Positions 16,834 through 19,746 of a stretch of DNA of 64,000 bases are shown here, piece after piece (within the stretch, counting starts at the first letter, position 1; each line of letters opens with the position of its first letter). Both the position numbers and the translations under genes were made by a program. The notes under the pieces were generated by a model. It made no database searches. It worked only from the letters and a program-made list of their open reading frames with translations, and was not told the DNA's origin. Origin of the DNA: Chitinophaga pendula (GTDB lineage: Bacteria; Bacteroidota; Bacteroidia; Chitinophagales; Chitinophagaceae); contig NZ_CP077769.1 in the NCBI RefSeq assembly GCF_020386615.1, positions 4,030,001-4,094,000 of the forward strand. Reading direction: 5' to 3'.

Positions 16834-17013
16834 ATGAAATCTACCCATTCATTCCCACTCATTTCCCGATCTGACATGAAAAAAGTGAAAGGCGGCGGTG
16901 TTGCTGTGGTTGCAGTTTGTCCTGTTGTCAAGTGTATAGACCCCGATCGTTGTCCCGGCACGACCAGCAGTGCATGTGTATGTAATGCCAGAGGAGCCTG
17001 TGTAAATAGGTAA
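16834..17013 (+). CDS. Cys-rich peptide with GG leader (peptide A)
   Basis: A 59-residue peptide. The leader occupies residues 1-22 and contains LISRS at 9-13 and KGGG at 19-22. The remaining 37 residues hold six cysteines (29, 34, 40, 48, 50, 56) with CxC at 48-50. This matches the general plan of Bacteroidota GG-leader natural-product precursors, which are cleaved after GG by peptidase-containing ABC exporters. No modification enzyme or exporter gene lies nearby, so maturation would need genes elsewhere. A second gene at 19576-19746 shares the leader with identical spacing. Secretion and disulfide pairing are inferred. It converges on the EamA gene with 18 bases between stops. Confidence 0.7.
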   Translation: MKSTHSFPLISRSDMKKVKGGGVAVVAVCPVVKCIDPDRCPGTTSSACVCNARGACVNR

Positions 17014-17031
17014 TGTAAAATTATGCTCATC

Positions 17032-17913
17032 TTACCTTTCCAGTACGCCAGACGGCTGACGTTTGAATTTGATCTCGGACACCAGCGTTCCTATAAGGAT
17101 CAATATACCACCGATTAACAAGCGCCAGGAAAGGCCCTCTCCCAGTAGTAATATAGCTGCTACAGCAGCAAAAACAGGTTCGAACAAATAAATGATCGCT
17201 ACCTTTTCTGCGCTGATGTATTGTTGGGCGATATTTGAAATAGTGTACATATACGCTGTTGAAAATAGCGCGCAATAGATTATACCAGTCCAGAAACCGC
17301 GCCCCTGTGGAAACCAAGTAGCAGCAGGATCAACACCGGCTACACAAAGCATCACCAAGGTGCAAGCCAGGAACATAGGGACAATTGTCGGGACGATATT
17401 ACCTTCCGCGGATAATTGTTCCACCCTGATCAAATAGGCTGCAAAGCCGAAAGTTCCGATAATCGTATATAGGTCTCCTATACTAACCGAAAGATTATCT
17501 TTAATGGATATAACGGCTAGCCCCAGCAGCGCGATGATAGCCGCGAGCCAGATCCTCCCGTCAATCCTGCTTCTGTAAACAAGCAGTTTTATGATAGGAA
17601 TTACAACAACACTGGTACCGGCGACAAAGGCGCATTGAGAAGCAGTGGAATGTTTGAGACCCAGCGTCTGGAAGTTGATACCGATTAATAGTGGTATGGC
17701 CAGAGATATGCTATCGAAAATATGTTTTTTTGTTATTTTATTTAGCTGCCGGTGTAAGACTAGTGCCAATACGACGGTTGCTAACAGGAAGCGGTATAGT
17801 AAAAATGTCGATTGGGAAACGCCCTCTACTGCCATTTTGGTAACGGGAAATGATATTCCCCAAAAAGCAGTCCCTAGTACAAGTAAGAAAATAAGGAGGT
17901 ATTTCTTGTTCAT
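17032..17913 (-). CDS. EamA-family (DMT) transporter
   Basis: A 293-residue inner-membrane protein with about ten hydrophobic segments in two EamA repeats (about 5-140 and 150-285). Typical motifs are FWGISFPVTKMAVEG in the first repeat and YLFEPVFAAVAAILLLGE in the second. I start at the ATG at 17911-17913, which has GGAAG nine bases upstream; the longer form would add a charged nine-residue extension. Family members export amino acids, nucleotides or other metabolites, but substrate cannot be read from sequence. It lies 69 bases after the GNAT gene in the same direction and may be co-regulated by the divergent LysR gene. Confidence 0.88.
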   Translation of the reverse strand: MNKKYLLIFLLVLGTAFWGISFPVTKMAVEGVSQSTFLLYRFLLATVVLALVLHRQLNKITKKHIFDSISLAIPLLIGINFQTLGLKHSTASQCAFVAGTSVVVIPIIKLLVYRSRIDGRIWLAAIIALLGLAVISIKDNLSVSIGDLYTIIGTFGFAAYLIRVEQLSAEGNIVPTIVPMFLACTLVMLCVAGVDPAATWFPQGRGFWTGIIYCALFSTAYMYTISNIAQQYISAEKVAIIYLFEPVFAAVAAILLLGEGLSWRLLIGGILILIGTLVSEIKFKRQPSGVLER

Positions 17914-17982
17914 CTTTTTCTTCCATCTATTTATTAGCACTGCCGATATCCAATGATCATTGGAGAGGCAGCGATTTAAGTA

Positions 17983-18504
17983 TTATTTCAATGTCTTTTT
18001 TACGAGGATATCGATCTGATCATCCCCACCTAATCTGAAAATATGCTGTCCGAACGGTGAAAATCCATTCTTCTCATAAAAGCGAAGTGCTCTTGCATTC
18101 TTTTCCCAGACGCCCAGCCAGACAAAATCCATATCCTTTTCGCGGGCAATCCGGAAGGCCTGTTCATAGAGTAATTGCCCTATGTTCTTCCCATGATATT
18201 CTTTCCGAACGTAGATACGTTCGATTTCCAGCGCCCTGTCACCCAGCACTTCTGTTTGAGCCGCTCCTGTGTTGATTTTCACATAACCGATCACCTGCTC
18301 CCCCGATCTCGCAAAATAAAATGCAGATCCGGCATCACCAAGCTCGGCCATTAACTTCTCCTGCGAAAAACTCTCTTCTAAGTATTGTGCCATATCCCTT
18401 TCGGCATTATGGGAAGCGAAGGTATCGACAAAGGTTTGTATACTAATCCTTTGCAGTTCTTCTATTTCTGTCACTCCTACACTGGTAATGTGGATATCTT
18501 CCAT
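17983..18504 (-). CDS. GNAT-family N-acetyltransferase
   Basis: A 173-residue acetyl-CoA-dependent acyltransferase. The acetyl-CoA-binding motif A is ERIYVRKEYHGKNIGQLLYE (about 114-133). The downstream motif B region is WEKNARALRFYEKNGF (about 137-155). The acceptor is unknown; small polyamines, amino acids or antibiotics are common in the family. It is divergent from the LysR gene with 109 bases between starts, a layout typical of a LysR target. It is followed by the EamA exporter, so the two may acetylate and export related compounds. Confidence 0.88.
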   Translation of the reverse strand: MEDIHITSVGVTEIEELQRISIQTFVDTFASHNAERDMAQYLEESFSQEKLMAELGDAGSAFYFARSGEQVIGYVKINTGAAQTEVLGDRALEIERIYVRKEYHGKNIGQLLYEQAFRIAREKDMDFVWLGVWEKNARALRFYEKNGFSPFGQHIFRLGGDDQIDILVKKTLK

Positions 18505-18583
18505 GTATATGCGTGGTTTTATTTACCTGTATTAGGCAAATCTACCACTACTTTGATGCATTAAAAATGCTAAATTTGAATAA

Positions 18584-18606
18584 ATTGATGCAAAAATCGC
18601 ATCAAT
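18584..18606. promoter_or_regulatory. Inverted repeat, candidate LysR operator
   Basis: A perfect 8-base inverted repeat, ATTGATGC-N7-GCATCAAT, ending 7 bases before the lysR start. A further half-site TTTGATGCA lies at 18552-18560. The position between divergent genes and the T-N-A interrupted dyad shape fit LysR-type operators. Autoregulation and control of the GNAT/EamA pair are inferred. Confidence 0.55.
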
Positions 18607-18613
18607 AACAGAT

Positions 18614-19471
18614 ATGACCACACAGCAAATCGAATACTTTCTGCAATTATCTGAGGAACTCCATTATTGGCGTACTTCTTATAAAGTGAATATTACGCAG
18701 TCTGCGCTTAGCCGGCAAATAAAGGCTTTGGAAGACGAGTTAGAGATTGAACTTTTCAAGCGCTCCAACCGAAAAGTTGAGTTGACGCCTGCAGGTAAGT
18801 TCCTGCAACAAAAGTGGAAACCAGTGATAGAACAGCTGAACGCTGCTACCCGCTATGCCAGAAAGATCCATGCGGGAGAAGGCGGAAGTATTGTTATTAA
18901 TCACCCCGGGTCTGTGAGCTACGATCTTTTACCGGCACTACTTGGTCGCATATCCTCGCTTTTCCCGGAGATAAAAGTTGAGCTGGTACAGCTGAAACAT
19001 ACACAGGAAATTGAATTGATGAAGGCCTTTCAGGTGGACCTTTGTTATAGCCGGCATCAATACATTGATGAGCTGTTGACGTCAAAATTAGTACGACATG
19101 ATAAACTTGCGCTCGTAGTGCCGGAGGCTCATCCGATAGTTCAGGTAACTGACATCAGCACGGCGACTTTGGAAAATGAACGTTTTATCCTATCTACCTT
19201 AACAGATGGGGAGACTTATCAAATGAAGCTGGGAGAGATCTTTACACAATATGGTATTGTTCCTAATGTCAGTTTTGAATCTGATTTTGGTTCGGTGTTA
19301 TTGAGTCTTGTGCAGCGAGGTCTCGGCATATCTATTATGCCTTTGTCGTATTCATATGCTCAATATCCTGGTGTTCGTTTTGTCACCATGCCTTTTGAAG
19401 TGCCCTTGTATGTGCACTGGCGAAAAGAAGAGGACAATACAGTGATCAGGAATATCCTGCCATTAATATAG
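18614..19471 (+). CDS. LysR-family transcriptional regulator
   Basis: A 285-residue LTTR. The winged HTH is at residues 1-62 (QIEYFLQLSEELHYW, ITQSALSRQIKALEDELEIE, LFKRSNRKVELTPAG). The effector-binding domain is at about 88-285. The sequence after the first helix (HYWRTSYKVNITQSALS) is longer than the usual HFGRAA loop, a variant seen in some LTTRs. Its effector is unknown. A perfect dyad directly upstream suggests autoregulation, and the divergent GNAT/EamA genes are likely targets. Confidence 0.92.
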   Translation: MTTQQIEYFLQLSEELHYWRTSYKVNITQSALSRQIKALEDELEIELFKRSNRKVELTPAGKFLQQKWKPVIEQLNAATRYARKIHAGEGGSIVINHPGSVSYDLLPALLGRISSLFPEIKVELVQLKHTQEIELMKAFQVDLCYSRHQYIDELLTSKLVRHDKLALVVPEAHPIVQVTDISTATLENERFILSTLTDGETYQMKLGEIFTQYGIVPNVSFESDFGSVLLSLVQRGLGISIMPLSYSYAQYPGVRFVTMPFEVPLYVHWRKEEDNTVIRNILPLI

Positions 19472-19513
19472 CTGGTATATTACCTGTAAGGGCTGACATC
19501 ATCCTGTAGCATA

Positions 19514-19550
19514 CAAAAGGCTGTAAATCAGTAATGTTTACAGCCTTTTG
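19514..19550. terminator. Bidirectional intrinsic terminator
   Basis: A perfect 14-base-pair stem (19514-19527 with 19537-19550) and a 9-base loop. The stem starts with A-run CAAAAGG and ends CCTTTTG, giving a U-tract in both directions. It separates the convergent lysR gene and the minus-strand cysteine-rich peptide gene. Confidence 0.85.
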
Positions 19551-19575
19551 CCTGTCCATGAATGTGGGTGGTCTA

Positions 19576-19746
19576 TTACTCAGGGATGATATAAACGCAG
19601 CGATTTCTTGCTACCCAACATATCTGATCGGGTGGACAATCCTTATCGCTTTCACAATAGAGTGCAGGCGCAGCGTTGGCACCACCACCTTTAATTTCAA
19701 TTAAACCGGAACGGGAAATAAGATCAAATTGGTTTTCTTTTTTCAT
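19576..19746 (-). CDS. Cys-rich peptide with GG leader (peptide B)
   Basis: A 56-residue peptide with the same leader plan as the peptide at 16834-17013: LISRS at residues 9-13 and KGGG at 19-22, in exactly the same positions. The mature part has four cysteines (31, 37, 43, 50) with spacing C-x5-C-x5-C-x6-C. It contains SDKDCPPDQIC, a pattern like small disulfide-knotted modules. The upstream A-rich ribosome site and a terminator just after the stop support a real single-gene transcript. Function is unknown; secretion after GG cleavage is inferred from the leader. No exporter or modifying enzyme is adjacent. Confidence 0.72.
   Translation of the reverse strand: MKKENQFDLISRSGLIEIKGGGANAAPALYCESDKDCPPDQICWVARNRCVYIIPE

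Follow-up and report, generated by a model that had tools for sequence, protein, structure and literature searches.

In a 64,000-nucleotide stretch of the Chitinophaga pendula chromosome (contig NZ_CP077769.1, positions 4,030,001 to 4,094,000; the whole stretch is referred to here as the window), two short genes encoding cysteine-rich peptides, P0001 and P0002, flank genes for an EamA-family transporter, a GNAT acetyltransferase and a LysR regulator, and the question raised by this locus is whether the peptides define one small block with these genes, as a first-pass annotation had proposed from the letters alone, or belong to a larger system. Our analysis of the source genome (G000, a 7.66-Mb chromosome) revealed that they are 2 of 84 paralogues found at 43 chromosomal sites. 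Based on sequence comparisons, we consider it reasonably likely that the pair are members of a dispersed family of disulfide-rich, probably antagonistic peptides, which would be oxidised under the guidance of their leader and exported in trans by a hub operon located ~158 kb away.

P0001 (16834..17013, plus strand) and P0002 (19576..19746, minus strand) encode 59 and 56 residues with six and four cysteines, respectively, and both carry LISRS at residues 9-13 and KGGG at residues 19-22; on all these points the translations agree with the first-pass annotation. The predicted leader comprises residues 1-22 in each (16834..16899 on the plus strand and 19681..19746 on the minus strand), with putative cleavage after its terminal KGGG, a double-glycine (GG) feature that is conserved in both of our alignments, A1 and A2. 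All six cysteines of P0001 are located past the leader, in a core (16900..17010, plus strand) that reads C-x4-C-x5-C-x7-C-x1-C-x5-C, and the core of P0002 (19579..19680, minus strand) reads C-x5-C-x5-C-x6-C. As had been noted before, no gene for a C39-peptidase ATP-binding cassette (ABC) transporter lies beside either peptide.

With P0001 as the sole query at E ≤ 10, 52 matches were obtained in the source genome, and a profile built from 45 aligned family members (A1) gave 92 at the same threshold and 86 at E ≤ 0.01. Every ATG-started open reading frame (ORF) of 52 own-genome stretches was then scored with A1: of 96 entries at E ≤ 1, 84 distinct ORFs reached the membership cut-off of 20 bits, among them P0001 (4.4e-15, 60.6 bits) and P0002 (1.0e-12, 53.0 bits). 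The twelve entries below 20 bits were excluded, although some are plausible members, and since only ATG starts were scanned, an A1 match such as 6509818 was left out of the count. The 43 sites result from joining members ≤ 5 kb apart, and 25 of them hold a single member. Six cysteines are found in 79 cores, eight in two, four in two (one being P0002) and seven in one, so that the number is even in 83/84 members. The first-pass annotation held both peptides too short for routine gene calling, which is partly right: at least 12 own-genome members besides the window pair are already in the protein database (two profile searches, best 80 and 86 candidates).

We also examined whether these ORFs are genuine genes. 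None of 8640 reversed and none of 8640 shuffled ORF versions scored ≥ 15 bits. The members share an initiation signature by which they differ from short ORFs outside the family as well as from long ORFs. The 84 members were compared with 422 ORFs measuring ≥ 200 aa and with 1125 further ORFs measuring 50-75 aa: mean A content at positions -13 to -11 is 71%, 52% and 26%, respectively, and G content at -28 to -4 is 5.8%, 13.9% and 23.7%. An upstream AACCC motif is mildly enriched (18/84 members versus 19/422), and a promoter scan, with 8 sites versus 10.2 expected, was uninformative. In all four recent duplicate pairs that we chose, nonsynonymous change is lower than synonymous change (pN < pS) in leader and core alike, which points to purifying selection. 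A homologue of P0001, P0003 on a public 5.9-kb contig, is identical at 46/59 residues and keeps all six cysteines. A few degenerate copies do exist, A1 matches 2361038 and 3526169 having two in-frame stops each and 7387738 being a leader-only remnant, as expected from gene birth and death; however, the idea that the ORFs arose by chance or are decaying is scarcely credible and is refuted at the level of the whole family by the controls, the initiation signature, the selection data and P0003, although individual members may be silent.

The family combines a conserved double-glycine leader of 20-25 residues with a variable core. In the 45 aligned members, M1, R12 and G20 are invariant and G21 and G22 nearly so. 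Mean pairwise identity of the leaders is 41% (3403 pairs) against 25% for shuffled leaders (800-pair sample), whereas that of the cores, with matched cysteines removed, is 19.9% against 18.6% when shuffled (3403 pairs). P0007 of the same genome and P0008 of a 156-kb public contig agree at 33/35 core residues and only 12/22 leader residues, which suggests leader-core exchange. The earlier reading of a constant leader with a variable cysteine core, typical of secreted precursors, is thus supported, and the Pfam double-glycine models ComC and Bacteriocin_IIc match 11/45 and 8/45 members, respectively, at E ≤ 0.1. Curated models of GG-leader precursors do not capture the window pair: P0001 scored 14.4 bits with TIGR04149 (GG_sam_targ_CFB, cut-off 25) and 17.4 with NF047798 (leader_Chryseo, cut-off 23.5), P0002 being unlisted by both at E ≤ 1, and P0002 scored 23.2 bits with NF047792 (CCPGW, cut-off 80). 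The resemblance to these families lies in the leader.

A C39-peptidase ABC gene, which the first-pass annotation had suggested looking for elsewhere in the genome, is found in the hub operon on the minus strand at chromosome positions 4207648-4214598 (L015:4649-11599). In transcription order, the hub encodes a C39-like/VKOR/thioredoxin fusion (548 aa), nine family members, a C39 peptidase-ABC (733 aa) and an HlyD-type protein (171 aa; L015:4649-5164, minus strand). The nine-gene group is the largest in the genome, and 75/84 members lie outside the hub. The fusion contains Peptidase_C39, VKOR and Thioredoxin_4 domains above Pfam cut-offs, and the ABC protein contains C39, ABC_membrane and ABC_tran; besides the fusion, six C39 matches are present in the genome, the hub ABC being one of them. 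Alignment of 16 fusions showed that all 16 retain the four cysteines of VKOR and the CxxC of the thioredoxin domain, whereas a cysteine or histidine is present at the catalytic Cys/His columns of the C39 domain in 0/16, from which we infer that this domain would bind the leader but not cleave it.

To characterize the link between peptides and fusion, we surveyed 79 genomes of the genus including G000 (A1 at E ≤ 1e-4, best 81 candidates per genome). Matches were found in 12/79: at least 80 in G000, 33 in G350, four each in G346 and G362, two in G017 and one in each of seven others, G350 being the sole other species with a large dispersed set. A separate search of 24 congeners gave matches in five at E ≤ 0.01. 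Among 294 genomes of the taxonomic family at least nine matched (best 21 candidates per genome), and among 395 genomes of the phylum at least ten (best 16 candidates per genome), G000 included in both, with no other genome above three; these counts are floors. Of the 78 other congeners, 47 were searched for the fusion, which was matched in 11/11 peptide-positive versus 14/36 peptide-negative genomes (p 3e-4, kinship ignored). Outside G000 and G350, 11/17 peptide hits lie ≤ 10 kb from a fusion gene by hand count, several of the 11 being mutual neighbours. Inspection of 15 fusion loci, 14 from congeners and one from another genus, revealed GG-leader peptides at 13/15, 20 in total, of which 19 have six and one has eight core cysteines, together with a C39 ABC in 14/15 and HlyD in 13/15. 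Eight pattern matches at these loci were dropped by eye as chance (L116:16874, L118:10206, L119:2793, L119:8055, L121:17538, L122:8362, L123:3996 and L124:8844), one of which had six cysteines. In three named records retrieved with the fusion, a Mucilaginibacter fusion (L098) is adjoined by two eight-Cys GG peptides and a fusion from Chitinophagales (L097) by a six-Cys GG-type peptide, and a pattern search of a third fusion record (L099) found no GG-type peptide.

Taken together these data suggest a route by which the peptides may mature. The dead C39-like domain of the fusion would bind the precursor leader while its VKOR/thioredoxin part would oxidise the core to form disulfides. The leader would then be cut behind the glycines, and the hub C39 peptidase-ABC with its HlyD-type partner would export the core. 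Members outside the hub, P0001 and P0002 included, would be served by it in trans. Secreted disulfide peptides are likely because the cysteine numbers are even and both a disulfide-forming machine and an exporter are linked to them. Once released, they would most likely act on competitors in a bacteriocin- or defensin-like manner, and duplication followed by divergence, perhaps together with leader-core exchange, would diversify their cores.

We sought to compare the cores with known disulfide folds. A spacing rule of our own, by which 1/84 peptides of G000 and 3/42 of G350 are unparsed or misparsed, divides the six-Cys cores of G000 and G350 into a C4-x-C5 class (68 and 26), a defensin-like class (6 and 5), a class with adjacent third and fourth cysteines (C3-C4; 3 and 4) and others (1 and 2). 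The G350 set comprises 42 peptides at ≥ 15 bits with an extended profile, from 20 stretches chosen around hits. P0001 belongs to the majority class, which holds 68/78 six-Cys cores of its genome. P0002 is matched best in G350 by G350:8280234 (37% over 43 aa), a peptide of six cysteines in which C3 and C4 are adjacent. The minority defensin-like cores read C-x3-5-C-x3-C-x9-C-x4-8-C-x-C, and the combination of a second gap of 3 and a third gap of 9 is found in 8/11 cores ending in C-x-C versus 2/104 others (p 1e-8, kinship ignored). A profile of seven such cores matched 32 distinct PDB sequences at E ≤ 0.01 (best 5e-6) and 58 at E ≤ 1; the matched molecules are defensins, gamma-thionins, and scorpion-type and other venom peptides, which we take to share the cysteine-stabilised alpha-beta (CS-alpha-beta) fold. 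Control profiles gave one hit for A1 (0.59), six for the adjacent-Cys class A6 (best E 0.016) and four for the C4-x-C5 class A7. Those four, all cystine-knot entries including MCoTI-II, are not significant (E 0.15-0.52), and the C4-x-C5 spacing is, as spacing, compatible with inhibitor cystine knots. Neither window peptide has CS-alpha-beta spacing, the gaps being 4,5,7,1,5 in P0001 and 5,5,6 in P0002, and AlphaFold models of P0001 (pLDDT 65, pTM 0.34) and P0007 (pLDDT 64, pTM 0.28) are both of low confidence.

A second profile, of eight full-length defensin-spacing members, matched 5/79 congeners. Seven of its hits were new at E < 1e-8: five, from G349 and G350, have plain spacing with G-x-C before the fourth cysteine, and the remaining two have eight cysteines in a similar spacing with extra cysteines. 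Among the five, L174 carries a seventh cysteine and reads CG instead of GG, L173 has AG, and L172:5958-6167 adjoins the G349 fusion gene; hits below this level belong to a mixture of classes. With the Pfam Defensin_2 model, one G350 protein scores above the cut-off (21.8 versus 20.4), nine other proteins given to the search being below it or unmatched.

Going one step further, it is conceivable, at slightly less than an even chance in our judgement, that C. pendula holds a venom-like arsenal in which more than 80 dispersed genes depend on a single leader type and a single oxidation-export hub, their several scaffolds comprising true CS-alpha-beta defensins and, probably, cystine knots, and the fusion being a leader-reading disulfide catalyst. 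The repertoires of G000 and G350 are mostly different, since most best matches share 25-50% identity, with 61% and 54-59% for the clearest ones. Because two congeneric species hold such large and mostly different sets, the arsenal would either turn over fast or have radiated twice.

Several observations weigh against the proposed export of antagonistic peptides through the hub. The neighbour comparison revealed no recurring immunity gene next to the peptides, which is odd for bacteriocins, and the near-neutral mean core charge of +1.0 is unlike that of a classic bacteriocin; targets unlike the producer, such as fungi or other eukaryotes, are a possibility. The core of P0002 has four cysteines only, and the four duplicate pairs do not indicate positive selection. 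On the side of the hub, its HlyD-type protein is short compared with those of relatives (426-457 aa in 12/13, with 137 aa in L117) and may miss the coiled-coil part, which would bear on the outer-membrane step, and the genome has five further C39 proteins. In favour of the hub, no family member of ≥ 20 bits was found at the loci of these five (L092-L096). The association is also imperfect: the fusion occurs in the 14 peptide-negative genomes, in one as a 113-residue fragment, 6/17 congener peptide hits are not ≤ 10 kb from a fusion gene, and no peptide was seen at 2/15 fusion loci (L112 and L122). The same near-neutral charge would suit secreted signals of a competence or pheromone type, as would the ComC matches, the NCBIfam ComC and EntF induction-factor models found in a few members and the LytTR/response-regulator-like ORFs near some of them. 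Signals are nevertheless unlikely, since most of what the ComC and EntF models cover is the leader, copies of the regulator family are not enriched near members (13/38 lie ≤ 2 kb away versus ~11 expected from 209/696 ORFs), no receptor gene recurs and 84 divergent cores are many for signals.

Protection of the producer rather than killing, by knottin-type protease inhibitors or metal binders, would fit the C4-x-C5 spacing and the cystine-knot entries above, and one member matches a metallothionein model (E 0.0026); yet no reactive loop conserved outside the cysteines is seen in the cores, the class has no significant fold match and the models are of low confidence, which makes this function still less probable than signalling. 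The name of TIGR04149 raises the option that the cysteines are modified by enzymes of the radical SAM (rSAM) or lanthionine (Lan) type. This model matches 3/45 members at E ≤ 0.01 and a relative's peptide, L125, at 26.2 bits, above its cut-off, whereas P0001 is well below; even cysteine numbers fit disulfides, and the hub ORFs read and typed include VKOR and thioredoxin but no rSAM or Lan enzyme (no genome-wide search was made for either), so that we regard enzymatic modification as very improbable. Oxidation and export of disulfide peptides through the hub, with antagonism as their presumed role, accommodate these data best in our view.

The family shares with class II bacteriocins and competence peptides (C39 AMS/PCAT systems) a double-glycine leader, a small core and, in the hub, a C39 peptidase-ABC with HlyD. 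It differs in that most precursors lie far from the exporter, cores mostly have six cysteines, an immunity gene does not recur and the operon of the exporter also encodes a fusion in which a dead C39-like domain is linked to VKOR and thioredoxin. A minority of cores resemble bacterial CS-alpha-beta defensins (actifensins, actinomycesin and five proposed classes) in spacing, one reaching the Defensin_2 cut-off, and their profile has hits among defensins and scorpion toxins of known structure; the family differs by its VKOR hub and its double-glycine leader. PMC8819291 and PMC11561630 describe bacterial defensins of actinobacterial, myxobacterial and proteobacterial origin and from one acidobacterium, and the string 'bacteroid' occurs 0 times in their main texts. 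The literature searched, which was partial and held few subscription papers, yielded no prior description of the family or of a VKOR-linked GG-peptide hub.

Conotoxin-like and plant knottin and defensin repertoires have a constant leader, a core that is hypervariable between fixed cysteines and many paralogues per genome. By analogy the present family may be comparable, but it is bacterial, follows a double-glycine/ABC route and pairs a single leader type with more than one framework of cysteines, the folds being putative for most cores. If our reading is right, one bacterial leader and folding-export machine would handle dozens of unrelated disulfide scaffolds, which would help in studying the origin of venom-like repertoires and could be turned to the production of disulfide peptides, and defensin-like peptides would gain a new export route and reach Bacteroidota, a placement that SusC/SusD-like genes and the named fusion relatives also indicate. 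Short-gene repertoires this large can stay largely uncalled.

The genes between P0001 and P0002 were confirmed as an EamA-family transporter (17032..17940, minus strand, first GTG as listed, with an ATG from 17925), a GNAT acetyltransferase (17983..18504, minus strand) and a LysR regulator (18614..19471, plus strand). No gene family recurs clearly beside the 84 paralogues, although very short or divergent genes could escape this comparison, and the EamA/GNAT/LysR block was rejected as a functional gene cluster, its three genes most likely being bystanders for that reason. Small families mostly near members, SDR-like (3/4) and short helix-turn-helix-like (3/5) by our own labels, are too few to judge. 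A search of 24 relatives at E ≤ 1e-60 gave no match to the LysR gene, which left an empty-site comparison uninformative, and a plasmid search gave no match to the window locus. Flanking DNA is homologous for only a few member pairs, and one pair of adjacent family genes is duplicated as a block ~7 Mb apart. Near another C39 ABC gene there is a Cys-rich ORF of GG type whose leader differs (L092:10303-10529), and the two perhaps form a second, unrelated export system. Three tandem 66-aa peptides with six to eight cysteines and a related but different leader (14-15 bits; 5885396-5886178 of the chromosome, L091) are possibly a sister family. Upstream of members 1862850, 1876467 and 3493971 there is a similar stretch of ~50 bp, which may be an upstream gene end in common or reflect an insertion route.

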